A DNA stretch of 40,622 bases from Flavobacteriales bacterium (lineage in GTDB: Bacteria; Bacteroidota; Bacteroidia; Flavobacteriales_F; PHOS-HE28). The notes beneath the pieces were generated by a model. That model did not search any database, was not told the DNA's origin, and was given only the letters and a program-made list of their open reading frames with translations. The DNA lies in NCBI GenBank assembly GCA_024103275.1, contig JAGFIV010000089.1:1-40622 (forward strand), written 5' to 3'. This document shows, piece by piece, positions 21,094-33,244 of this stretch (positions within the stretch are counted from its first letter, which is position 1; the number at the start of each line of letters is the position of its first letter). The position numbers were made by a program, and so were the translations under genes.

Positions 21094-21984
21094 ATGGAAC
21101 TGATCATTGAAGGACTGAACAAGACTTATGGCAACGGCGTTAAGGCGCTGGACAACGTCGGCCTGCACATTCCCACCGGCATGTTCGGCCTGCTGGGGCC
21201 CAACGGTGCGGGCAAGAGCACGCTGATGCGCATCCTGGCCACCTTGCAGGAGGCCGATGCCGGTACCGTCCGTTTGGGCGACATCGACGTGCTGAAGGAG
21301 AAGGACGCCGTGCGCCGTGTGCTGGGCTACCTGCCGCAGGAGTTCGGCGTGTACCCCAAGGTGAACGCCTACGGCATGCTGGACCACATCGCCCTGCTGA
21401 AGGGCGTGATCCACAAGGGGGAGCGCAAGGAGCTGGTGGAGGCGCTGTTGCAGCGGGTGAACCTGTGGGAGCACCGCAAGCGCAGGCTCAGCGGCTTCAG
21501 CGGCGGCATGAAGCAGCGCTTCGGCATCGCGCAATGCCTGATCGGCGAGCCGAAGCTGATCATCGTGGACGAGCCCACGGCCGGCCTGGACCCCGGGGAG
21601 CGCAACCGCTTCTACAACCTGCTCACGGAGATCGGGGAGAACGTGGTGGTGATCCTCAGCACGCACATCGTGCAGGATGTGCAGGAGCTGTGCAGCAACA
21701 TGGCGATCATCCACAAGGGCCGTGTGCTCTATGCGGGCCCGCCGCAGGAGAGCCTGCGCGCCATCCAGGGCAAGGTGTGGCGCAAGCGCATCGCCAAGGA
21801 GGAGCTGGAAGGCTTCGTCCGGAGCGGCAAGCTGATCAGCAACCGGCTCTCCGCGGGCCAGCCCGTGATCCACCTGCTGAGCGATGAACGGCCGGGCGAG
21901 GGCTTCGAGGCGGTGCAGCCCAGCCTGGAGGATGTCTTCTTCGGTGCCATCAACCGCGGCAACGCCGAACCCGTGCGCGCATGA
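21094..21984 (+). CDS. ABC transporter ATP-binding protein
   Basis: A 296-residue nucleotide-binding subunit. Walker A is GPNGAGKST at about residues 34-42, the Q-loop is GYLPQEFGVYPKVNAY, the signature is LSGFSGGMKQRFG, Walker B is LIIVDEPTAGLDP and the switch His lies in ILSTHIVQDV. It is a DrrA/CcmA-type ATPase of the ABC-2 exporter class. The start at 21094 begins the fold directly (MELIIEGLNKTYG). Its last codons overlap the permease start by four bases (ATGA at 21981-21984), so the two are translationally coupled and form one exporter. The C-terminal 80 residues are an extra domain common to this class. Confidence 0.95.
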   Translation: MELIIEGLNKTYGNGVKALDNVGLHIPTGMFGLLGPNGAGKSTLMRILATLQEADAGTVRLGDIDVLKEKDAVRRVLGYLPQEFGVYPKVNAYGMLDHIALLKGVIHKGERKELVEALLQRVNLWEHRKRRLSGFSGGMKQRFGIAQCLIGEPKLIIVDEPTAGLDPGERNRFYNLLTEIGENVVVILSTHIVQDVQELCSNMAIIHKGRVLYAGPPQESLRAIQGKVWRKRIAKEELEGFVRSGKLISNRLSAGQPVIHLLSDERPGEGFEAVQPSLEDVFFGAINRGNAEPVRA

Positions 21985-24900
21985 CCCGCAAGTTCTTCCT
22001 CTTCGAGGTGCGCTATTGGCTGCGGCAGCCCATGGTGTACATCTTCATCCTGATCACCGGCCTGTTGCCCTTCTTCGCCGTGATCAGCGACAACGTGCAG
22101 ATCGGCGGCGGCATCGGCAACGTGTTCCGCAACGCCAACAACGTGGTGTACCAGTTCTACGGCGGCATGTCCTTCCTGGCCATCCTCATGGTGGCCGCCT
22201 TCGTGAACGCCACGGCCATCCGCGACTTCAGCAGCGATACGGCCCAGATCATCTTCTCCACGCCGGTGGACAAGCGCAGCTACCTGCTGGGCAAGTTCCT
22301 CGGCAGCACGTTCATCTCCACGCTCCCGCTGTTGGGCGTGTCGCTGGGCATCGTGCTGGGCAGCTGGTGGCCCTCGCTCGATCCGCTCCGGGTGGGCCCC
22401 AACAGCATCCTGGCCCACGCCGAGGCCTTCCTGGTCATCGGCCTGCCCAACATCCTGTTCTCGGCCGCCATCATTTTCGCCGTGGCCGTGCTGCTGCGCT
22501 CCACCATGGCCTCGTTCATCACGGCCATCGTGCTGATCGTGGGCTACAGCATCGCCGGCACACTGATGAGCGACATGGACAACCAGACGGTGGCCGCCAT
22601 GCTTGACCCTTTCGGTGGAACGGCCATGGAATTGGTGTCCAAGTACTGGTCCGTGGATGAGAAGAACAGCGCGCTGTTGCCTTTGGACGGGGTGCTGCTG
22701 TGGAACCGGCTGGCCTGGGTCGGCGTGTCCATCCTGGTCTTCCTCTTCGGCTACCTGCGCTTCAGCTTCACCGATCGCGCGCAGCGGGCCCGGCCCGCAG
22801 GCGAGGATGAGGACGCGCGCCCCCAGTCGGTCACCCTGGCCCTTCCGGCCGTGAAGCTGCGGCACGGGGCAGGCGCGGCCCGTGCGCAGTTCCTCACCCT
22901 CTTGCGCAATGACTTCCTGGGCATCCTCAAGGGCACGTCCTTCATCATCATCATGACGCTCGGGCTGGTGCAGCTGTTCGTCTCCCTGGGCTTCGTCACC
23001 AGCATGTACGGCAACACCACCTATCCGGTCACTTACAGCGTGGTGGACCTGATGGATGGCTCGCTCTCCGTCTACCTGCTGATCATCGTAGTGTTCTATG
23101 CCGGGCAGCTGGTGTGGAAGGAGCGCGACCCGAAAATTGACGGCATCATCAACACCTTGCCCATGTCCACGGCGGCTAACTGGCTGGCCAAGATCACGGC
23201 ATTGGCGGGCATCGTATTGGTGGTGCATCTGTTCGCCGTGCTGGCCGGCATGACCACGCAGTTGCTCAACGGATACACCCGCCTGCAACCGGGGGTGTAC
23301 CTCACCTATTTCGTCCTGCCGGGCACCATCAGTTTCACCTGTTGGGCCGTGCTGGCCATGCTGGTACACGTGCTGGTGAACAACAAGTACCTCGGCTGGT
23401 TCGTGTTCATCGTCCTGTTCCTGCTCAACATCTTCGGCTGGCAGGCCCTGGACGTCGTCTCCCACCTCGTGGTCTTCAACAGCAGCTCGGGCCTGGTGTA
23501 TTCGGACATGAACGGCTTCGGCCCCTACATGCAGGGATGGCTTTTCTTCAAGGGCTATTGGCTCCTGTTCGCGGGCTTGCTGCTGCTGCTGGGCCTGCTG
23601 TACGTGGTGCGCGGCAACGACACGGCCTGGCGCTGGCGCAACCATATCGCCGGGCTTCGGCTGAGGAGCGCGTGGCCCGTGGGCGCGGTGCTGCTGGCCG
23701 GCTGGCTGGGCATGATGGGCTATGGCATCTACAGCACCAAAGTGCTCAATACCTACAAGAGCAGCGACCAGATGGAGGCCTTGCAGGTGCGCTATGAGAA
23801 GGAGTACAAGAAGTACGAGGGGATGCCGCAGCCGCACTTCACCGACATCAGCTACTTCATCGACCTGGACCCGGCGGAGCGTTCGATCACCTACACGGCG
23901 GACATCGTCCTGAAGAACAAGCACGCCGTGGCGGTGGATACCCTGTACTTCAATGTGCCCCAGCGCATGAAGGTGGTGATCGAGATCCCCGGCGCGGAGC
24001 TGGTGCTGAACGACACGGCCTTGGACCAGCGCATGTACCGCCTGGCCCGGCCCATGGCCCCCGGCGATGAGCTCGCCATCAAGGTGAGCGGCGGTTGGAA
24101 GCCCAAGGGGATCTCCAATTCCGTCGAGTTCACCGGCCTTGTTGACAACGGCAGTTTCTTCAACAACATGGACCTGATCCCGACCATCGGCTATGAACCG
24201 GGCGGCGAGCTCACGGACCGGGAAAAGCGCCGCAAGCACGGCCTGCCGCCCAACGAGCGCATGCCCAAGCTGAGCGACGACCCCGCCCGGCGGATGGACA
24301 ACTACCTGATGCGCAACAGCGATTGGGTGAACGTGCGCACCACCATCGGCACCGCGCCGGACCAGATCGCCATCGCACCCGGCTCCCTGCGCAAGGAGTG
24401 GGAGGCGGACGGCAAACGCTGGTTCACCTACGAGCTGGACTACAAGGCGCTGAACTTCTACTCCTTCCTCAGCGCACGCTACGAAGTGGCGCGCGAAACC
24501 TGGAAGGACCCCAAGGGCGTGGCGCCGGACGTGCAGCTGGAGGTCTATTACCAGAAGGAACACGGCGTGAACGTGCCGCGCATGCTGAACTCGCTGCACA
24601 AGTCGTTGGACTACTACACCGCGCATTTCGGTCCGTACCGCCAGAAACAGGCGCGCATCATCGAGTTCCCGCGCTACGCCTCGTTCGCCCAGGCCTTCCC
24701 CGGCACCATGCCGTACAGCGAGGGCATCGGCTTCATCACCGACCTCACCGCCAAGGAGGACATCGACATGGTGTTCTACGTGGTGGCGCACGAGATGGGG
24801 CACCAATGGTGGGCGCACCAGGTGATGGGGGCCGCCATGCAAGGCAGCACCCTGCTGAGCGAGAGCATGGCCCAGTATTCCGCGCTCATGGTCATGGAGA

Positions 24901-25586
24901 AGGAGTACGGCCTGGCGCACATGCGCAAGTTCCTGAAGTACGAGGGCGACAAGTACCAGAACGCACGCGGCATGGAGGCGCTGGGCGAACAGCCCCTGCT
25001 CACCGTGGAGAACCAGGGCTACATCCACTACAACAAGGCCAGCGTGGTGCTGTACGGGTTGCGCAACTTCCTGGGTGAGGACACGCTGAACAGCGCCTTC
25101 CGCTCCCTGGTGGACAGCTTCGGCTATGCCGATCCCCCGTGGCCCACTTCGCTGGACTGGTACCGGGCCGTGCGCAAGGTGACACCCGACAGCCTCACCT
25201 ACCTGCTTGAGGACGGCATCAAGTACATTACGCTGTATGACAACAAGGTGATCGAGGCCAAGGGCACGATGAATGCCGACAGCACGTGGACGGTGACCCT
25301 GAAGCTGACCGCCGAGAAGGAGCACGCCGACTCGCTGGGCAAGGGCACCCCCGTGCTGATGGATGATTGGATGGACATCGCCGTGGAGCGGTGGCCCAGC
25401 TTCGGCAAGGACAAGGAACTGAACGATGTGCCCCTGGTGCAGCAGCGTGTGAAGCTGCACACCGGCGAGAACATGTTCACGTTCACCGTCAAGGGCAAGC
25501 CGTCGGCCGTGGTGATCGACCCCGACCACCTCTTCTTCGACCGCCACCCGGACGACAACCGGAAATCCGTGGAGAAGGAGGAGTGA
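21981..25586 (+). CDS. ABC-2 permease fused to M1-family aminopeptidase-like domain
   Basis: A 1201-residue membrane protein. Residues 1-590 contain about twelve membrane helices in two ABC-2-type halves (first from FFLFEVRYWLRQPMVYIFILITG, second from FLTLLRNDFLGILKGTSFIIIM). Residues 600-1201 are a periplasmic M1 peptidase-like region: an N-terminal beta domain (YFIDLDPAERSITYTADIVLKNKH) and a gluzincin domain with His937-Glu938-Met-Gly-His941 and Glu961 in LSESMAQY. Two departures from ordinary M1 aminopeptidases are visible: the substrate N-terminus motif GxMEN is replaced by GTMPYSEGIGF, and HEXXH and the third ligand are 19 rather than 18 residues apart. This architecture recurs in Bacteroidota; the cargo is unknown. 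It may process and export, or sense, peptides, which is inference. Confidence 0.92.
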   Translation: MTRKFFLFEVRYWLRQPMVYIFILITGLLPFFAVISDNVQIGGGIGNVFRNANNVVYQFYGGMSFLAILMVAAFVNATAIRDFSSDTAQIIFSTPVDKRSYLLGKFLGSTFISTLPLLGVSLGIVLGSWWPSLDPLRVGPNSILAHAEAFLVIGLPNILFSAAIIFAVAVLLRSTMASFITAIVLIVGYSIAGTLMSDMDNQTVAAMLDPFGGTAMELVSKYWSVDEKNSALLPLDGVLLWNRLAWVGVSILVFLFGYLRFSFTDRAQRARPAGEDEDARPQSVTLALPAVKLRHGAGAARAQFLTLLRNDFLGILKGTSFIIIMTLGLVQLFVSLGFVTSMYGNTTYPVTYSVVDLMDGSLSVYLLIIVVFYAGQLVWKERDPKIDGIINTLPMSTAANWLAKITALAGIVLVVHLFAVLAGMTTQLLNGYTRLQPGVYLTYFVLPGTISFTCWAVLAMLVHVLVNNKYLGWFVFIVLFLLNIFGWQALDVVSHLVVFNSSSGLVYSDMNGFGPYMQGWLFFKGYWLLFAGLLLLLGLLYVVRGNDTAWRWRNHIAGLRLRSAWPVGAVLLAGWLGMMGYGIYSTKVLNTYKSSDQMEALQVRYEKEYKKYEGMPQPHFTDISYFIDLDPAERSITYTADIVLKNKHAVAVDTLYFNVPQRMKVVIEIPGAELVLNDTALDQRMYRLARPMAPGDELAIKVSGGWKPKGISNSVEFTGLVDNGSFFNNMDLIPTIGYEPGGELTDREKRRKHGLPPNERMPKLSDDPARRMDNYLMRNSDWVNVRTTIGTAPDQIAIAPGSLRKEWEADGKRWFTYELDYKALNFYSFLSARYEVARETWKDPKGVAPDVQLEVYYQKEHGVNVPRMLNSLHKSLDYYTAHFGPYRQKQARIIEFPRYASFAQAFPGTMPYSEGIGFITDLTAKEDIDMVFYVVAHEMGHQWWAHQVMGAAMQGSTLLSESMAQYSALMVMEKEYGLAHMRKFLKYEGDKYQNARGMEALGEQPLLTVENQGYIHYNKASVVLYGLRNFLGEDTLNSAFRSLVDSFGYADPPWPTSLDWYRAVRKVTPDSLTYLLEDGIKYITLYDNKVIEAKGTMNADSTWTVTLKLTAEKEHADSLGKGTPVLMDDWMDIAVERWPSFGKDKELNDVPLVQQRVKLHTGENMFTFTVKGKPSAVVIDPDHLFFDRHPDDNRKSVEKEE

Positions 25587-25642: not shown

Positions 25643-25688
25643 ATAAGCAGCCAAATGTGACCCTTCAACCATTGATTTGGCTACTTAT
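25643..25688. terminator. Long hairpin between convergent units
   Basis: ATAAGCAGCCAAAT (25643-25656) pairs with ATTTGGCTACTTAT (25675-25688), 13 of 14 positions, across an 18-base loop. It lies 56 bases after the ABC operon and overlaps the stop codon of the minus-strand ATPase remnant, so it may serve as a shared terminator. It is notably AT-rich for the region. Confidence 0.55.
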
Positions 25689-26070
25689 AATTCCTGGAAT
25701 AGGGCTTCCGCGGCCAGGTCGTTCTGTACCCATTGCCGGCTATAGGCGTTTATGGCCAAGCCGTAGGTGGTGATGAAGGTGAGCAGGATGCTTTTGCGCG
25801 TGCCTGTGGACCTCCGGAAGGATTCGATCTTTTGCGCCAGCTCCCGGGCATACTTCGCGTCGATGGTGAAGGGGCCGTCGCGGAACTTCATTTCGCAGAG
25901 GTTGACCACATGGTCGTCCCGGTCGATCAGCAGGTCCACCTGTGCGCCGCCGTTGCCGCCCTTGGCGAACCAGGACCCGTCCACGCTGTGGATGCCGGAA
26001 ATGCCCAGCCTGTGCTTGATCTCCTCCACGTGTTTGGTGCAGAGGGTCTCGAAGGTGATCCCGGCCCACC
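25685..26070 (-). pseudogene. C-terminal remnant of an AAA ATPase (archaeal-type, DUF234-like)
   Basis: About 128 codons match the end of a large family of stand-alone P-loop ATPases with a C-terminal PD-(D/E)XK-like domain. Recognisable phrases are WAGITFETLCTKHVEEIK, GISGIHSV, GGAQVDLLIDRDDHVVNLCEMKF (with the D..E-x-K nuclease-like residues), FTIDAKYARELAQKIE, and ILLTFITTYGLAINAYS. Full-length members have about 480 residues; the P-loop and AAA part are absent. Homology stops near 26070, and the reading frame upstream runs antisense through the promoter and riboswitch of the cobalamin operon with no resemblance to the family. The remnant frame itself is intact to its TAA. Decay must be recent, or the fragment is still made. 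Function is unlikely. Confidence 0.8.
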
Positions 26071-26082
26071 GGGAACGCACCC

Positions 26083-26090
26083 TATCTTTG
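26083..26090 (+). promoter_or_regulatory. Cobalamin operon promoter -7 element
   Basis: TATCTTTG is a perfect TAnnTTTG match. Transcription should begin near 26096, shortly before the riboswitch. It lies only 13 bases from the end of the ATPase remnant. Confidence 0.65.
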
Positions 26091-26111
26091 CCGCGCTGAT
26101 GATCCCCTGCT

Positions 26112-26262
26112 CTCAAGGCCGGGGTTAAAAGGGAACCAGGTGCGAATCCTGGGCTTTTCCTGAAGCTGTAAGCCTCAGCAACCGAACCGGCACCAAGCCA
26201 CTGTCCGCACCGCGGGCGGGAAGGCGCCGGCAAGGGAGGCGAGCCAGAAGACCTGTCACCAG
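26112..26262 (+). promoter_or_regulatory. Adenosylcobalamin riboswitch
   Basis: The conserved B12-riboswitch blocks occur in order: AAAAGGGAACCAGGTGCGAA followed by TCCTGGGC (26127-26154), a C-rich/CTGTAAGCC region (26158-26174), GCCACTGTCCGC (26197-26208), GGGCGGGAAGGCGCCGG (26214-26230), and the B12 box AGCCAGAAGACCTG (26242-26255). The start codon of the first gene is about 110 bases further on, with an expression-platform stretch (TGGAGTTTGCTTCCAGGAGAG) in between. When cobalamin binds, such RNAs shut off expression, so the three downstream genes should be induced by B12 shortage. Boundaries are approximate. Confidence 0.93.
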
Positions 26263-26375
26263 CGCAAGTGGAGTTTGCTTCCAGGAGAGAGGCAAGCCCG
26301 AAGCGCAAGGCCTGGCGCGATCGGCTCTTCTTCCTGGAGGCTGTTGTTGAACAGCGAATTCAAAAAACAAACAGG

Positions 26376-27494
26376 ATGAAGCACGTTTTCAGTACCCTTT
26401 CAGCCCTCGCCCTGCTGGCCACCACCGCGCAGGCACAAACCTTCGATGCCTCCCAGGTGGAATTCTGGGTGGGCAGCGGCCCGGACAGCACCGTGCTGGT
26501 GGTCGACTTCCAGGATGGCACGGCAACGCCCAGCTACGCCTGGGGCTTCCTGCATGATGGAAGCGCCACGGCCGAGGACATGCTCAACGCCATCGACGCG
26601 GCCGATCCGGGCCTCACGGTGGAGATCACCAGCGGATTCCTCAACAGCATCACCTACGGCAGCCATGTCGGCATCGGCGGCAACCCGGATTGGTGGAGCA
26701 CGTGGAGCGGGCCTTCCTTCGATGGGATGGTCTCCAACATGGGCATCAGCGAGGTGCTCAGCAACGGCAGCTGGTTCGGATGCTCCTACACCGATTTCAA
26801 CCCGGCGCTGGAGCCCACCACGCCCGTGGCCGCCGCAGATCCCTCCGCCTTCACCTTCGCCGATGTGGAGATCTGGGCGGGCAGCGGCCCGGACAGCACG
26901 GTGCTGGTGGTGGACTTCCAGGATGGCACCGGCGCTTCTTCCTTTGCTTGGGGCTTCCTGCATGAAGCGGGTGCCACCGGCGAGGATCTGCTCTCGGCCA
27001 TCGCCGCGGCCGACCCCTCCTTCGCCCCGGTGGTGAATGGTGGCTTCCTGAGCGACCTCACCTATGGCGCCCATGCCGGCATCGGCGGCCAGCCCGACTG
27101 GTGGAGCTCCTGGAGCGCCACCAACCTGGGCAATTGGACCATGAACTTGGGCCTGGCCACGGAGCTGGGCACCGGTGATCTCTTCGGTCTCTCCTACACC
27201 GACTTCAACCCGGCCCTGCCCCCGGGCACGCCGGTGGCGGCACCGTCGGGCTCCGTGGGCGTCGTCGTTGTCGGTGGGCCGACGGTCGCTTTGTGGCCCC
27301 GGCCGGCCACGGATGTGCTGCACATTGCCGGCATCCATGGAACGGCGCCGGTGGAGGTGTACAACATGGCCGGCGGACGCATCCATTCCGGTGTGCTGTC
27401 CGGTCCGGAAGGCACGCTGAACGTCGCCTCTTGGCCTGCAGGCACGTACGTGTTGCGGGTCGGGCGGTTGCGCCAACTGATCTCGGTGCAGTGA
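26376..27494 (+). CDS. Secreted duplicated-domain protein, candidate cobalamin-capture component
   Basis: A 372-residue protein, first in the riboswitch-controlled operon. Residues 1-21 are a signal peptide (ending TAQAQ). Two tandem copies of a ~130-residue domain follow, residues 26-153 and 162-289. Each has VExWxGSGPDSTVLVVDFQDG, then AWGFLHxxxAT.EDxLxAIxAADP, GIGGxPDWWSxWS and SYTDFNPAL. The copies are about 60 percent identical and lie exactly 136 codons apart. Residues 300-372 resemble a T9SS type A sorting domain (VALWPRPATDVLHIAG, SWPAGTYVLRV), with the usual YPNP reading WPRP. No enzyme motif is seen. I recall similar single domains (xVLVVDWNDG, WGYRWDG) in secreted proteins of other phyla, without a known function. 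Surface B12 binding is inferred from operon and localisation only. The ATG at 26376 is chosen for the signal peptide; A-rich sequence precedes it. Confidence 0.85.
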   Translation: MKHVFSTLSALALLATTAQAQTFDASQVEFWVGSGPDSTVLVVDFQDGTATPSYAWGFLHDGSATAEDMLNAIDAADPGLTVEITSGFLNSITYGSHVGIGGNPDWWSTWSGPSFDGMVSNMGISEVLSNGSWFGCSYTDFNPALEPTTPVAAADPSAFTFADVEIWAGSGPDSTVLVVDFQDGTGASSFAWGFLHEAGATGEDLLSAIAAADPSFAPVVNGGFLSDLTYGAHAGIGGQPDWWSSWSATNLGNWTMNLGLATELGTGDLFGLSYTDFNPALPPGTPVAAPSGSVGVVVVGGPTVALWPRPATDVLHIAGIHGTAPVEVYNMAGGRIHSGVLSGPEGTLNVASWPAGTYVLRVGRLRQLISVQ

Positions 27495-27507
27495 CCGGTG
27501 CCATCCC

Positions 27508-29439
27508 ATGCGTGGCCGCGTCCATCTGCTGTGGGGAGCCCTGCTGCTGGCAGGAGGCCCCGTGCTGTGCCAGGACATCCAGGACAGCCTGCAGCTGGAC
27601 GCGGTCACCATCAGCGCATCACGCGGGGTGCTCTTCGACGCGGGCGTGAAGGTGCAGGCTGTCGACAGCGCCACGCTGGACAGGTACATAGGTCGTGACC
27701 TGGGCGAGCTGCTGCGCGATGCCAGCCCGGTCTTTGTGAAAAGCTATGGCCTGGGCAGTTTGGCCACCACGTCATTTCGTGGCGGGGGTGCGTCGCACAC
27801 CGCCGTGCTGTGGAACGGCTTCAACCTGGGCAGCGCGATGAACGGGCAGCTCGACCTGTCGCTGGTGCCTGTGGGCCTGGCGCAGGAGGTGACGCTGCAA
27901 TATGGCGGTGCGGCCGCCCTGTGGGGCAGCGGTGCCGTGGGCGGGGCCGTCCTGCTGGGATCACGGCCGGCATTCGGCAAGGGCCTCACCGCGGATGCCG
28001 GGGCCTCCATGGGGAGCTTCGGCGACAACCGCCAACAGGCCGGCGCAGGCTACAGCAACGACAAATGGAGCGTTGCGGTGCAGGGCTATCGGGCGGATGC
28101 CCGGAATGATTTCCCATGCCGCCGCCAACGCAATGGTGAGGAGGAGGAACGCCGGCAGACCAATGCCGCGATGGCGATGAACGGCATGCTGGCCTCCGTG
28201 GGCCATCGGATAAACGGGCGGCAGCGGCTGGATGTGAATGTGTGGTGGAACGACGCGGAGCGGCAGGTGCCGCCCACCTTGGTGCAGGATGAAAGCACCG
28301 ATCACCAGCACGACCGGGCCCTGCGCACCACGGCCCAATGGCAGCGCGTGGGCGACAAGGCCACCGGCCAGGTGCGTGCGGCCTGGTTCAACGAGGAGCT
28401 TTGGTGGTACGGCGAAGGCACGGACAGCGCGGCCTACAGCCGGCTGAACACCGTGATCGCCGAGGGGGAGATGCGTTTCCGCAAAGGGGAGCGGCACCTG
28501 TTTGGCATCGGCTTGCACGGCACCATGGCGGCCGCGGCCACCGACGGCTATCCGGCGGGCCGTCACCAAGATCGCGCGGCGCTGTTCGCGTCCTACCGGT
28601 TCCGGACCACGGACCGCCGGTTCATCGCATCCGCCTCGGCCCGGCAGGAAATGGCGGATGGAAGCCGGGCACCCTTCACCTGGTCCGTCGGCAGCGAGTA
28701 TCAGTTGCTGCCATGGCTCTCCGCCAAGGCCAATGCCTCCCGGCTGTTCCGCCTGCCCACGCTGAACGACCTGTACTGGACGCCCGGCGGCGACCCGCGA
28801 CTGCGGCCCGAAAGCGGATATGGCGGCGAACTGGGCCTGGCCACCGGACGGGATTTCAGGCGGGGTTGGAACATGCAAGCGGAACTCACCGGCTACCGGC
28901 GCAAGATGGACAACTGGATCATCTGGTTGCCGGCCGGCAGCTACTGGAGCCCGCAGAACCTGATGGAGGTGTGGAGCAGGGGCATGGAGTTCAGGGGGGA
29001 GGTGGCCCGCCAATGGGACCGGGTGTCCATCACCTTGGGCGCGATGACCAACTACGCGGTGAGCACCAACGAACGCGCGAAGACGGCCGGCGACGCCTCC
29101 GTGGGCAAGCAGCTCATCTACGTGCCCATGTACAGCGGCGCCGCAACATTGGAGGTGGCCTGGCGCAACTTCGCCATCGGGGGCGGCATGCACTACACCG
29201 GCTATCGCTACACCAGCACGGACAACCGCCAGTTCCTGCCGCCCTACACCTTGCTGGACGCCCATGCCTCGTGGCGCTTCCACGCCGGGCACAAATGCCT
29301 GCTGAGCCTTGCCGCCGAAGGTTTCAATTTATTGGACGAGCAATACCAGGCGATGCTGAACCGGCCGATGCCCATGCGCCATTTCCAGGTCGGCTTGCGC
29401 ATGCACTTCAACCAGCCGCTGCACGGCAACAACCCATGA
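27508..29439 (+). CDS. btuB: TonB-dependent vitamin B12 receptor, BtuB-like
   Basis: A 643-residue outer-membrane transporter. Signal peptide residues 1-21, a Ton-box-like LDAVTISA near residue 30, a plug domain (about 45-150: GRDLGELLRDASPVFVKSYGLGSLATTSFRGGGASHTAVLWNG, split motif; VTLQYGGAAALWGSGAVGGAVLL), and a 22-strand barrel with alternating aromatic strands to the C-terminus (LLDEQYQAMLNRPMPMRHFQVGLRMHFN). The plug phrase RGGGASHTAVLWNG is typical of the BtuB/cobalamin subgroup. It starts 13 bases after the preceding stop and its stop overlaps the BtuG-like start (ATGA), which with the riboswitch makes B12 the likely substrate. The protein ends with a short polar tail (QPLHGNNP) after the last aromatic strand. 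Confidence 0.88.
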   Translation: MRGRVHLLWGALLLAGGPVLCQDIQDSLQLDAVTISASRGVLFDAGVKVQAVDSATLDRYIGRDLGELLRDASPVFVKSYGLGSLATTSFRGGGASHTAVLWNGFNLGSAMNGQLDLSLVPVGLAQEVTLQYGGAAALWGSGAVGGAVLLGSRPAFGKGLTADAGASMGSFGDNRQQAGAGYSNDKWSVAVQGYRADARNDFPCRRQRNGEEEERRQTNAAMAMNGMLASVGHRINGRQRLDVNVWWNDAERQVPPTLVQDESTDHQHDRALRTTAQWQRVGDKATGQVRAAWFNEELWWYGEGTDSAAYSRLNTVIAEGEMRFRKGERHLFGIGLHGTMAAAATDGYPAGRHQDRAALFASYRFRTTDRRFIASASARQEMADGSRAPFTWSVGSEYQLLPWLSAKANASRLFRLPTLNDLYWTPGGDPRLRPESGYGGELGLATGRDFRRGWNMQAELTGYRRKMDNWIIWLPAGSYWSPQNLMEVWSRGMEFRGEVARQWDRVSITLGAMTNYAVSTNERAKTAGDASVGKQLIYVPMYSGAATLEVAWRNFAIGGGMHYTGYRYTSTDNRQFLPPYTLLDAHASWRFHAGHKCLLSLAAEGFNLLDEQYQAMLNRPMPMRHFQVGLRMHFNQPLHGNNP

Positions 29440-30500
29440 TGGACCCGCGATACCAGCGCCCCTTGGCCAGGATACCCCTTGTCACCGCGTTGCTGCTCGG
29501 CCTGCTGGCCACCTGGGGCTGCCGCAAGGACAAGCCGGAGGAACCGCTGCAAGCGACGGCAGGCCCTGTGGGGGAGCATGGCGTGTACATCACCAACGAG
29601 GGCAATTTCCAGTGGGGCAATGCCTCGGTGAGCTTCTATGATAAAGTCACGCAAACCGCCACGGAGGACCTCTACGGCCCGGCCAACGGGGGGCCGATCG
29701 GCGATGTGTGCCAATCGATGGTGCTCCACGGCGGCAAGGGCTACGTGGTGGTGAACAATTCAGGCAAAGTGGTCGTGGTGGATCCCGGCACGTTCGTGGA
29801 GCAGGCCGTGATCACCGGTTTCCAATCGCCGCGCTACTTCCTGCCGGTCGGCGACGACAAGGCGTACGTTTCCGACTACTACGCCGGCAAGGTGGCCGTG
29901 GTGGACCTGATCGGCAATGCCATCACCGGCCACATCCCCTGCCCGGGGACCACGCAGGAGATGGTGCTGCACGGGGGCAAGGCGTATGTGGTGAACGAGA
30001 CGCGCGGCGAGGTGCATGTGATCGATGTGGGCACGGATGCTGTGACGGACACCATCGTGGTGAACAAGGGCGCCAACTCCATTGTGCAGGATGCCCATGG
30101 CAAACTGTGGGTGGCGTGCTCGGGCGGGGGCGGAACGGCCCCGGCCATCAAGCGCATCGACACGCAGGCGGCCGCGGTGGAGGCGAGCTTCAGCTACGCC
30201 AATTCAGCCAACAACCCCTGGCGGTTGCGGATCAACGGGACCGGTGATACCCTGTACTTCCTCAAGGGCGGCGTGTTCCGCATGGCGATCAACGATCCGG
30301 CTGCGCCCACATCGGCCTTCATCCCGGCCGATGGCCGCAACCTGTACGGCTTGGGCGTAGACCCGTCCGATGGGAACATTTACCTGGCCGATGCACTGGA
30401 CTACACCCAGCGCGGCGTGATCTATCGCTACGGTCCGGACGGCAGCTTGCAGGGAACCTTCCACGCCGGGATCAACCCGTCGGGCTTTTGTTTCAAGTGA
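29436..30500 (+). CDS. btuG: Surface cobalamin-capture lipoprotein, BtuG-like propeller
   Basis: A 354-residue YncE/YVTN-type beta-propeller with a lipobox (LLATWGC, Cys29), so a lipoprotein, probably surface-exposed. Blades are visible as repeated units such as GKGYVVVNNSGKVVVVDPGTFVEQAVITGF, DDKAYVSDYYAGKVAVVDLIGNAITGHI and GKAYVVNETRGEVHVIDVGTDAVTDTIVV. In Bacteroides, BtuG proteins of this fold sit over BtuB and bind B12 with extreme affinity before passing it on. Here the gene overlaps btuB by four bases (ATGATGG, 29436), so they are coupled. B12 binding is inferred from homology of architecture and context. A GGCCAAAT-G-ATTTGGCC palindrome follows and may end the operon. Confidence 0.87.
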   Translation: MMDPRYQRPLARIPLVTALLLGLLATWGCRKDKPEEPLQATAGPVGEHGVYITNEGNFQWGNASVSFYDKVTQTATEDLYGPANGGPIGDVCQSMVLHGGKGYVVVNNSGKVVVVDPGTFVEQAVITGFQSPRYFLPVGDDKAYVSDYYAGKVAVVDLIGNAITGHIPCPGTTQEMVLHGGKAYVVNETRGEVHVIDVGTDAVTDTIVVNKGANSIVQDAHGKLWVACSGGGGTAPAIKRIDTQAAAVEASFSYANSANNPWRLRINGTGDTLYFLKGGVFRMAINDPAAPTSAFIPADGRNLYGLGVDPSDGNIYLADALDYTQRGVIYRYGPDGSLQGTFHAGINPSGFCFK

Positions 30501-30649: not shown

Positions 30650-33244
30650 ATGCAACGACCAGCCCGATCCGTGTGCCTGCTTTTTTCCTTGGCGATCGCG
30701 ACCATCCCCGCGATGCCGCAAGATGCCGTGGACCTGGTGCGGCAATGGTTTGCGACCAACGCGGCGGGTCTCGGCCTGGAGGGAGACGCGGCCACGGCCT
30801 GGGAGGTTACGGACCGGCATGTGGATCGCCAGGGCCGAACATTCGTGTACGTGCGGCAGACCGCCCATGGCCTTTCGGTGGATGGTGCCGTGGCCAATTT
30901 CGTGGTGACGGATGGACGGGTGATCCTGTCGGGGAACCGCTTGCAGGGGCAGCTGGCCGCACGCCTGGCCCCGGCGGTCCCGGGGATCAGCGCGGAGGAA
31001 GCGCTCCGGGCCGCAGCAAGGCACCTGGGCCTTCAGGCCGGGGAGATCCGCGCAGGCAAGGTCGTTTCGCCCACCGAGGTGATCATGGGACCCTGCGGGA
31101 TTTCCCGTGATTCCATCCCCGTCCGGCTGGCCTATCGGGTCGTACCCGGCCAACGCGGCATTCCATTGGCCTGGCACGTGGTGATCCGGGAAACCAACGG
31201 GCGGCACTGGTGGCACATCGCGGTGGATGCCCACGGCGGAACGGTCATGTGGAAACATGACTGGGTGACCCATTGCACCTTCCCCGATGCCCCATTTGCA
31301 AGGACCTACAACGCCTTGGACGACCTGGTGCCCGATGGAAGCGGGGATGACGCGCTGGGCGGCGGGGCCGGACCCGGTTACCGGGTGTTCGCCTTTCCCA
31401 CGGAAAGCCCCCTCTATGGGCCGCATGTGTGGCTGGACGACCCCTCCGATGGCGATGCCTCGCCCTTCGGATGGCACGATACCGACGGCATGGCGGGGCC
31501 GGAACACACCATCACCCGGGGCAACAACGTGTATGCCGGCGAGGATTTCGACGATGACGATGAGATCGGGTACAGTCCCGACGGCGGCCCGTCCCTCAGC
31601 TTCGATTTCCCGTATGACCAGGCCGTGGGGCCGTTGGGCTACCTGGATGCCGCCGTCACCAACCTGTTCTACACGTGCAACGTGTTGCATGATGTGTGGC
31701 ACCACTATGGGTTCGATGAGGCCGCCGGCAATTTCCAGTACACCAACTACACGGGCTTCGGCGAAGGCAACGACGAAGTGTATGCACAGGCGCAGGACGG
31801 CGGCGGCATGAACAACGCCAACTTCGCCACCCCGCCCGACGGCTGGTCGGGGGCCATGCAGATGTACTTGTGGCGCACCAGCGAGGGCGATTCGTTGATC
31901 ATCAACAGCCCGTCGTCCGTGGCCGGCGGCTACGCCGTGGTGGCGGCCGGCTTCGGCCCCGTGCTGCCCACGCCACCGATCACGGCGGACCTGGCGTTGA
32001 TGGAGGATGGCACGGCACCGCTGAACGACGGCTGCGACCCCTTGGTGAATGCGGCGCAGCTGGAGGGCAAGATCGCCGTGGTGGACCGTGGGCTGTGCAC
32101 CTTCGTGAGCAAGGCGGAAGCGGCCGAGGCGGCCGGTGCCGTGGGCCTGGTGGTGATCAACAATGTCGGCGGCACATCCATTACCATGGGTGGCGACGAC
32201 ACCGGCATCGGCATCCCCGCCGTGATGATCTCCATGGCCAACGGGCAGGCACTGAAAAATGCGATGCAACAGGGAACGGTGAATGCCACTTTGGGAGGTC
32301 CCGCGCCGGGATCCATACGCGACGGCGACCTGGACAACGGGGTGATCGCCCATGAATATGGCCATGGCGTATCCAACCGGCTGACGGGCGGCCCTGCCGA
32401 TTCCGATTGCCTGTGGAACGATGAGCAAATGGGCGAGGGATGGAGCGACTGGATGGCCATGGTGCTCACCATGAAGCCCGGTGACCAGGCCGAAACGCCG
32501 AGGGGCATGGCCAACTTCGTGCTGGGGGAGGAAATCGACGGCCAAGGATTGCGCCCCGCGCCCTACACCACGGACATGGCGGTAAACCCATACACTTATG
32601 GGAACTCCAACTCGTTTGCCTTCCAAGGCGCACATGCCTTGGGCTTCCTGTGGGCCACCATGCTGTGGGACCTCACCTGGGCCCTGGTCGATGAGGAGGG
32701 CTTTGACCCCGATGTGTACCAGGGGACCGGCGGCAACAACATCGCCATGCGCCTGGTGCTGGACGGCATGAAGCTGCAACCGTGCGGGCCGGGCTTCGTG
32801 GACGGGCGCGACGCCATCCTGCTGGCGGACCAGTTGAACTACGGCGGTGCGCACGCATGCCTCATTTGGGAAGCCTTTGCGCGGCGCGGCCTCGGATACG
32901 GCGCCAGCCAGGGCAGCCCGGACTCGGTTTCCGACCAGGTGCAGGACTTCAGCCTGCCGTCCAGTTGCCTCACGGGTGTGCCGGATGCATCAGGCGATGC
33001 CCTGCGGCCGTTCGTGCTGTTGCCCAACCCGGCGGCCGATGCCGTGACCCTGCTCCTGCACGCCCCGGCCGGGGGAGGAGCCACCGTGCGCGTGCTCACC
33101 GCCGATGGCCGAACGGTCAGGGAAGCATCTTTCCAGGGAGGGCGGGAACTGCACCTGGACCTTTCCGGCATGGCCCCCGGGATGTATGTGGTGCAGCTGG
33201 ATGAACAAGGGCGGCGGACACATGCACGCTTGGTGGTGCGGTAA
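30650..33244 (+). CDS. Secreted M36 (fungalysin) metallopeptidase, T9SS cargo
   Basis: An 864-residue zinc endopeptidase. A signal peptide (1-24) is followed by an FTP-type propeptide (YVRQTAHGLSVDGAVANFVVTDGRVI) and a PepSY-like region. The catalytic M36 domain starts near residue 215 and contains NLFYTCNVLHDVWHHYGFDEAAGNFQ, the zinc motif His568-Glu569-Tyr-Gly-His572 in HEYGHGVSNR, and Glu596 in GEGWSDW. A protease-associated domain is inserted within it (about residues 430-545; DRGLCTFVSKAEAAEAAGAVGLVVINN). Residues 790-864 form a T9SS sorting domain (FVLLPNPAADAVTLLL, GMYVVQLDEQGRR). It should be autoprocessed and released to digest external protein. The start at 30650 gives the signal peptide; TACATTGC at 30587-30594 is a weak promoter candidate. 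The next gene overlaps its stop by one base. Confidence 0.92.
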   Translation: MQRPARSVCLLFSLAIATIPAMPQDAVDLVRQWFATNAAGLGLEGDAATAWEVTDRHVDRQGRTFVYVRQTAHGLSVDGAVANFVVTDGRVILSGNRLQGQLAARLAPAVPGISAEEALRAAARHLGLQAGEIRAGKVVSPTEVIMGPCGISRDSIPVRLAYRVVPGQRGIPLAWHVVIRETNGRHWWHIAVDAHGGTVMWKHDWVTHCTFPDAPFARTYNALDDLVPDGSGDDALGGGAGPGYRVFAFPTESPLYGPHVWLDDPSDGDASPFGWHDTDGMAGPEHTITRGNNVYAGEDFDDDDEIGYSPDGGPSLSFDFPYDQAVGPLGYLDAAVTNLFYTCNVLHDVWHHYGFDEAAGNFQYTNYTGFGEGNDEVYAQAQDGGGMNNANFATPPDGWSGAMQMYLWRTSEGDSLIINSPSSVAGGYAVVAAGFGPVLPTPPITADLALMEDGTAPLNDGCDPLVNAAQLEGKIAVVDRGLCTFVSKAEAAEAAGAVGLVVINNVGGTSITMGGDDTGIGIPAVMISMANGQALKNAMQQGTVNATLGGPAPGSIRDGDLDNGVIAHEYGHGVSNRLTGGPADSDCLWNDEQMGEGWSDWMAMVLTMKPGDQAETPRGMANFVLGEEIDGQGLRPAPYTTDMAVNPYTYGNSNSFAFQGAHALGFLWATMLWDLTWALVDEEGFDPDVYQGTGGNNIAMRLVLDGMKLQPCGPGFVDGRDAILLADQLNYGGAHACLIWEAFARRGLGYGASQGSPDSVSDQVQDFSLPSSCLTGVPDASGDALRPFVLLPNPAADAVTLLLHAPAGGGATVRVLTADGRTVREASFQGGRELHLDLSGMAPGMYVVQLDEQGRRTHARLVVR

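Follow-up and report, generated by a model that had tools for sequence, protein, structure and literature searches.

A predicted tandem transcobalamin-beta-like protein with a type IX secretion sorting domain, encoded in a riboswitch-preceded BtuB-BtuG operon of a Flavobacteriales bacterium

The stretch of DNA considered here, referred to as the window, comprises 40,622 nucleotides of a Flavobacteriales bacterium (contig JAGFIV010000089.1, assembly GCA_024103275.1) and contains a three-gene operon which is preceded by a cobalamin riboswitch and encodes, in this order, a secreted protein with a duplicated domain (gene 1), a BtuB-type outer-membrane receptor (gene 2), and a BtuG-type beta-propeller (gene 3). 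Gene 1 very probably acts at the cell surface as the corrinoid (B12)-binding partner of BtuBG in uptake, where binding is what we infer from the predicted fold of its two domains and from the company the domain keeps in genomes. In most microbial communities B12 is scarce and contested, and which members obtain it is decided by capture proteins at the cell surface. The operon is composed of the following elements, all located on the + strand:

26083-26090, +: Bacteroidota sigma-A -7 box (TAnnTTTG), TATCTTTG, found at the same place in the genus homologues
26083-26274, +: cobalamin riboswitch aptamer (RF00174, 114.8 bits)
26376-27494, +: gene 1, secreted tandem transcobalamin-beta-like protein with a type IX secretion system (T9SS) tail, 372 amino acids (translation, models, homologues)
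26376-26438, +: Sec-type signal peptide of gene 1 (MKHVFSTLSALALLATTAQAQ), without a lipobox cysteine, read from the sequence and kept in homologues
26442-26834, +: predicted transcobalamin-beta-like domain 1 (AlphaFold2 model, VIA-align Z 12.5 and 12.3)
26850-27242, +: predicted transcobalamin-beta-like domain 2 (domain profile, 205 bits; full-length model)
27270-27491, +: C-terminal T9SS sorting domain (PF18962, 23 bits, under the cut-off; VIA-align Z 9.0-9.7)
27508-29439, +: gene 2, BtuB-type TonB-dependent outer-membrane receptor, 643 amino acids (Pfam and PDB matches)
29436-30500, +: gene 3, BtuG-type DUF5074 beta-propeller, putative lipoprotein (Pfam and PDB matches)

Gene 1 contains two tandem copies of a domain of about 131 amino acids, a duplication which is still visible at the DNA level as 258-nucleotide repeats located 408 nucleotides apart with 75% identity. 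The domain was modelled with AlphaFold2 using 76 domain sequences as input (mean predicted local distance difference test score, pLDDT, 97; predicted template modelling score 0.92), and the model consists of strands at residues 15-22 and 31-38, a helix at 44-54, a hairpin at 58-63/66-72, and strands at 75-78, 83-90, and 110-117. In a Foldseek search of this model against the PDB, the first fifteen matches were all transcobalamin and haptocorrin, and the top 14 matches obtained with VIA-align were B12 carriers only (Z 11.3-12.5), among them intrinsic factor (2pmv; Z 12.5, 101 residues, 2.3 Å), haptocorrin (4kki; Z 12.3, 94 residues, 1.6 Å), transcobalamin, and the beta domain of the latter in isolation (Z 11.7). 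Next after the carriers came 3u7z, annotated as a putative metal-binding protein (Z 10.5), and unrelated beta-grasp folds scored 7.4 at most. In a model of the mature gene 1 protein (pLDDT 87.6), domain 2 matched 4kki and 2pmv with Z 12.2 and 12.0, respectively. The order of the elements, i.e., a beta-grasp whose helix is followed by an inserted hairpin, agrees with that of the transcobalamin-like clade of the SLBB superfamily (PMC1796856). Intrinsic factor, haptocorrin, and transcobalamin have this hairpin-bearing beta-grasp in their beta domain, and each domain of gene 1 is predicted to adopt it, at a sequence identity to the mammalian carriers of 13-20%. The domain family has neither a Pfam model nor a solved member, and a search of the domain profile against the PDB gave no significant match; BtuJ and BtuH were not among the matches listed in the fold search, which excludes nothing. 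The isolated human transcobalamin beta domain was crystallised with cyanocobalamin and had to be washed extensively before cobalamin was stripped from it (PMC5599065), and the alpha/alpha toroid of the mammalian carriers is therefore dispensable for binding as such.

The second line of evidence is the genomic association of the domain. A search of 147 relatives with gene 1 showed the domain region to be encoded in 17 same-genus genomes, that of the window included. BtuB is encoded directly downstream of gene 1 in 16 of these 17, and on contigs that extend far enough gene 1 is preceded by a riboswitch and followed by BtuB and then BtuG. Of the genus genomes, 15 encode both gene 1 and BtuG and 27 encode neither, with gene 1 alone in two and BtuG alone in one (Fisher P 6e-9, not corrected for phylogeny). 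Two of the three discordant genomes are explained by contigs that end (G031) or start (G043) inside btuB, so that the only true exception is G021, which carries an orphan copy (L045) outside any B12 operon. Some of the genus homologues carry the domain only once.

Beyond the genus, an alignment of the domain alone was used to scan one genome per species, which yielded 361 relatives, and the best 80 of these were examined for their neighbourhood. Riboswitches were detected with a covariance model built from 22 riboswitches identified by Rfam and with Rfam itself; a search by regular expression was dropped, since it gave an excess of false matches in GC-rich DNA. A cobalamin riboswitch was present upstream on the same strand in 74 of the 80 loci according to the covariance model, with a marginal match in one case; in 48 of those loci, the first gene after the riboswitch was the one encoding the domain. 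Rfam added two further loci (L190, 60.6 bits; L166, AdoCbl-II, 37.5 bits) and confirmed cases from planctomycetes and Kiritimatiellia, which lie outside the Bacteroidota. BtuB, BtuG, or BtuH neighbours were found in 51 of the 80 loci. None of 12 control loci that shared only the T9SS tail had a cobalamin riboswitch, and cobalamin riboswitches average about one per genome in the genus; the chance expectation is therefore far below one in 80. The first-pass annotation of this stretch had proposed gene 1 as a third surface component of B12 capture delivered by the T9SS, and had named homologues lying mostly without btuB or riboswitches as the pattern that would speak against it; with 16 of 17 and 74-76 of 80, the opposite was found.

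The composition of the loci varies among lineages. In other families of the class, the domain gene is again part of BtuB-BtuG operons, which are preceded by a riboswitch on contigs that extend far enough; the proteins sometimes have one or three domains, and a separate T9SS-tailed BtuH-like gene is sometimes present as well. In one genome of the genus Bacteroides (L050), the domain occurs as a lipoprotein encoded after BtuB, BtuG, and BtuH, the last recognised by its match to 8blw and 7biz. Fusions of the domain to BtuG-type propellers recur; such propeller fusions are found in Bacteroidales, sequence inspection of L113 revealed a fusion to a BtuH-like domain, and a Chryseobacterium protein (L171) combines the domain with a DUF5074 propeller (404.9 bits) and a T9SS tail (51.1 bits). 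Outside the Bacteroidota, the C-terminus of most proteins of the family is a PEP-CTERM-like tail and not a T9SS domain. In a metagenome-assembled genome of Desulfobacterium (L165, 3786-3865), a gene of the family has BtuH-like neighbours, and the riboswitch in front of it is of the cyclic di-GMP-I type (61 bits) rather than the cobalamin type.

The C-terminal tail of gene 1 scored just below the curated cut-offs for T9SS sorting domains (23 vs 27 bits in Pfam, 21.5 vs 23 in NCBIfam). In the model of the mature protein, residues 278-351 resemble T9SS C-terminal domains, including those of translocon-bound cargo, with VIA-align Z scores of 9.7 for PorZ (5m11), 9.6 for the C-terminal domain of mirolase (8qb1), and 9.0-9.2 for the T9SS-bound domains 8glk, 8glj, and 8gl6. 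The tail is conserved among the genus homologues, and the translocon protein SprA is encoded in the genome of the window (contig C104; TIGR04189, 2535 bits). The structural match of the tail together with the presence of SprA supports delivery of gene 1 by the T9SS, as had been suggested.

The remaining parts of the operon are of known types. Gene 2 is composed of a plug and a barrel (PF07715, 50.7 bits; PF00593, 123.7 bits), and among PDB chains it is most closely related to the BtuB subunits from BtuBG complexes of Bacteroides (8p97_A, E 2.5e-57; 8bmx_C, E 1.9e-56); it scored 98.7 against TIGR01779, which has an equivalog cut-off of 599.7. Gene 3 contains PF16819 (DUF5074, 105.8 bits), has BtuG proteins as its closest solved relatives (8bmx_D, E 8e-69; 3dsm_A), and has a putative lipobox, read from the sequence, in which Cys29 is followed by RKDKPEE. 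Genes 1 and 2 are separated by 13 bp, and genes 2 and 3 overlap in an ATGA. The riboswitch scored 114.8 bits against a gathering threshold of 31.5 (E 3e-28) and spans positions 1-189 of the RF00174 model, i.e., it is complete. Its first bases form the TATCTTTG box, which corresponds to the consensus of the Bacteroidota sigma-A box (PMC9723704); genus homologues have TAnnTTTG or TAnnTTCG at this place. A TAnnTTTG box lies near the riboswitch start in 12 of 22 operons, where about 0.007 per 70-nucleotide stretch would be expected by chance, and TAnnTTCG is present in most of the remaining genus operons. The first-pass annotation had thus correctly described the promoter and riboswitch, the close packing of three genes, the secreted duplicated-domain protein, and the BtuB-like and BtuG-like partners; the transcobalamin-like fold was not part of it. 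For the presumed expression platform, which would separate the aptamer from gene 1, folding was predicted to be no better than for shuffled sequences (z -0.95), and the sole terminator-like match on the + strand lies inside the aptamer (26136-26152), a number at chance level.

These elements can be combined into a working model. At low intracellular cobalamin, the riboswitch would permit expression of the operon, and gene 1 would be exported by Sec and then by the T9SS across the outer membrane via its C-terminal domain, to be either displayed on the cell surface or released. Outside, the two beta-grasp domains would trap corrinoids, probably by means of the beta-hairpin insert, the YWSTWSG motif of strand 4, and the connector between strands 4 and 5, and the corrinoids would be handed over to the BtuG lid of BtuB, followed by TonB-driven import.

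Sequence conservation is consistent with such a site. The conserved columns of the domain include G65, F66, and L67 at the hairpin tip as well as Y72, G77, W85, W88, N99, and G101, and these belong to elements that contact B12 in transcobalamin (PMC1796856); conserved columns are found elsewhere in the domain, too. In the orphan copy L045, which has neither riboswitch nor BtuB, 10 and 13 of the 65 conserved columns are no longer kept, and many of these losses fall in the hairpin and strand 4; operon copies have lost 1-4, and L045 is a single case.

Several points weigh against corrinoid binding by gene 1 or limit how far the comparison with the mammalian carriers can be taken. Proteins with quite different ligands are also built on the beta-grasp fold, and a common fold is not proof of a common function. 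Gene 1 lacks the alpha/alpha toroid with which the mammalian carriers close over B12, so that affinity could be modest. The domain did not match Pfam DUF4430 when 76 members were scanned, and its profile-profile similarity to transcobalamin does not reach the usual level of significance: using carrier sequences read from PDB chains, hhalign gave a score of 20.1 and an E-value of 0.009 for one pair at a probability of 4.5%, compared with scores of 15.6 or less for 30 column-shuffled controls. This weak similarity, which counts in favour of the proposed role, is in the same register and places TAEDML in the helix, SGFLNSI in the hairpin, and DWWSTWSG against TYWQFLSG. As the sequence-level tie to transcobalamin is weak, the claim made here is one of fold and not of proven common descent.

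Of the functions other than corrinoid binding that could be assigned to gene 1, that of an adaptor or scaffold which no longer contacts the ligand itself and organises BtuB and BtuG or other binders deserves most attention, as BtuL and BtuK2, encoded in the B12 operons of Bacteroides thetaiotaomicron, did not bind cobalamin (PMC12751083) and as tandem domains and propeller fusions are also compatible with such a role. We nevertheless consider it unlikely, because the fold match is specific to B12 carriers and conservation takes in those elements that contact B12 in transcobalamin (PMC1796856). A role in binding some other soluble ligand, such as free cobalt, a corrinoid precursor like cobinamide, or a carrier glycan, in place of complete cobamides would fit the variety of ligands bound within the SLBB superfamily (PMC1796856) and the putative metal-binding neighbour 3u7z, but gene 1 is co-regulated with BtuB and BtuG and its nearest folds are cobalamin carriers, which makes this role more improbable still. 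That gene 1 is an unrelated T9SS surface protein caught in the operon by accident could be argued from the orphan L045 and from the abundance of T9SS-tailed proteins in the genus; this is strongly disfavoured by the neighbourhood survey and very improbable, since a cobalamin riboswitch precedes 74-76 of the 80 loci found with the domain alone, across several phyla and with varying surface anchors, and none of the 12 T9SS-tail controls.

A surface corrinoid-binding role for gene 1 is the reading we prefer, and a bolder extension of it is put forward tentatively, as we judge it rather less likely to be right than wrong. The family might represent self-sufficient B12 traps of the transcobalamin beta type in Gram-negative bacteria of several phyla, in which tandem domains would substitute for the toroid, either because they hold one corrinoid between them or because capture is multivalent, and the T9SS-secreted, possibly released carrier delivering to BtuG might be a bacterial functional counterpart of intrinsic factor.

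Further observations concern B12 loci of the genus and the surroundings of the operon. The window genome has two RF00174 matches, the second of which (L049, 5060-5193, 39.5 bits) lies just upstream of an apparent class I ribonucleotide reductase (nrdB followed by nrdA, read by eye). A cobalamin riboswitch before a class I ribonucleotide reductase is the usual B12-sparing arrangement. In two genus genomes, a second cobalamin riboswitch is followed by a broken copy of gene 1 (L051, 4957-6771, - strand; L052, 5800-7480, + strand), which retains the first domain or the signal peptide only and runs into sequence resembling an Rhs core by eye, an assignment that Pfam did not confirm; L052 adjoins an orthologue of the gene at 21981-25586 of the window and thus corresponds to the window's own site. 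Genus genomes without BtuBG have a cobalamin riboswitch in front of a propeller-like protein of about 425 amino acids (L240, 2227-3513; L241, 9644-10927; L242, 124-1395; L245, 1735-3000), of which the L240 copy has a T9SS tail above the Pfam cut-off and no BtuB found beside it. In the window, an open frame at 25685-26308 (- strand), which abuts and overlaps the riboswitch promoter, resembles the C-terminal remnant of a larger gene and matched no Pfam family, and the operon is followed at 30650-33244 (+ strand) by an ordinary T9SS-dependent M36 metallopeptidase (NF038113, 947 bits).

Known families were considered as identities of gene 1 and rejected. BtuK1 in a close relative of B. thetaiotaomicron (G822, BtuGH 89% identical) consists of PKD_3 and DUF5074, neither of which is present in gene 1; the gene 1 domain was not found in G822 and occurs in only 3 of 120 genomes of the genus Bacteroides. 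DUF4465 (BtuJ) was unmatched in gene 1 and in 14 diverse domain relatives, which rejects this identity at the sequence level, and BtuH-type genes (matches to 8blw and 7biz) are found next to gene-1 homologues as genes in their own right. Neither Pfam nor NCBIfam has a model that matched the repeats of gene 1 or passed its cut-off in the 14 relatives; no named Pfam family was found in 10 long-type or non-Bacteroidota members either, and a scan of 76 members did not exceed chance. Long-type relatives (L088-L116, with domains of about 180 amino acids) share the pattern GYWSYW..W.YS..G with NCBIfam SCO2322 (NF040672) of actinobacteria, a local match confined to these relatives, to profile positions 8-42 of 144, and to E-values of 0.0018-0.17, far below the cut-off; it is rejected as an identity and kept as a lead to a possible Gram-positive link.

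A T9SS version of the transcobalamin-like domain in BtuBG operons appears to be unreported in the open-licence PMC literature searched, and the large unnamed family behind B12 riboswitches in several phyla suggests an unrecognised class of B12-capture proteins. If this holds true, a concrete function would be available for a family of at least 361 loci without a Pfam name, and the fold of intrinsic factor and transcobalamin would also serve the uptake of B12 across the outer membrane by environmental Bacteroidota and be found in bacteria with PEP-CTERM-like tails. It would also suggest that T9SS or exosortase anchoring can substitute for lipoprotein anchoring in the same job, and it bears on the origin of the fold of the animal B12 carriers, for which Gram-positive bacteria were proposed in 2007 (PMC1796856).

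Genes 2 and 3 are of the same kind as BtuB and BtuG of Bacteroides, and gene 1 is without a counterpart in the published BtuBG complexes (PMC6143338, PMC10404256). The first-pass annotation had stated that no such additional component was known, which was too broad, as Bacteroides has the accessory surface lipoproteins BtuH, BtuJ (DUF4465), and BtuK in riboswitch-controlled operons, and some DUF4465 proteins bear C-terminal sorting motifs (PMC8941943, PMC12751083, PMC13398666); it stands insofar as the gene 1 domain is none of them. These proteins are extra surface B12-binding proteins of riboswitch operons, as proposed for gene 1, but are built from different domains. With the beta domain of mammalian intrinsic factor, haptocorrin, and transcobalamin (PMC1796856, PMC5599065), gene 1 shares the predicted fold with the hairpin after the helix, the extracellular location and, putatively, the role in B12 capture, whereas it lacks the alpha/alpha toroid and a DUF4430 match and has tandem beta domains (one to three in relatives) and a T9SS tail. 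Transcobalamin-like SLBB proteins of the DUF4430 type were predicted in 2007 to be B12 scavengers in Gram-positive bacteria and planctomycetes, encoded beside CbiO/CbiQ-type transporters, and Bacteroidota were not listed for this clade (PMC1796856). Like gene 1, those proteins are secreted SLBB-domain proteins encoded near B12 transport genes, sometimes with a fused propeller or toroid; unlike them, the gene 1 family belongs to Gram-negative BtuB-BtuG systems, lies behind cobalamin riboswitches, and has T9SS or PEP-CTERM-like tails.

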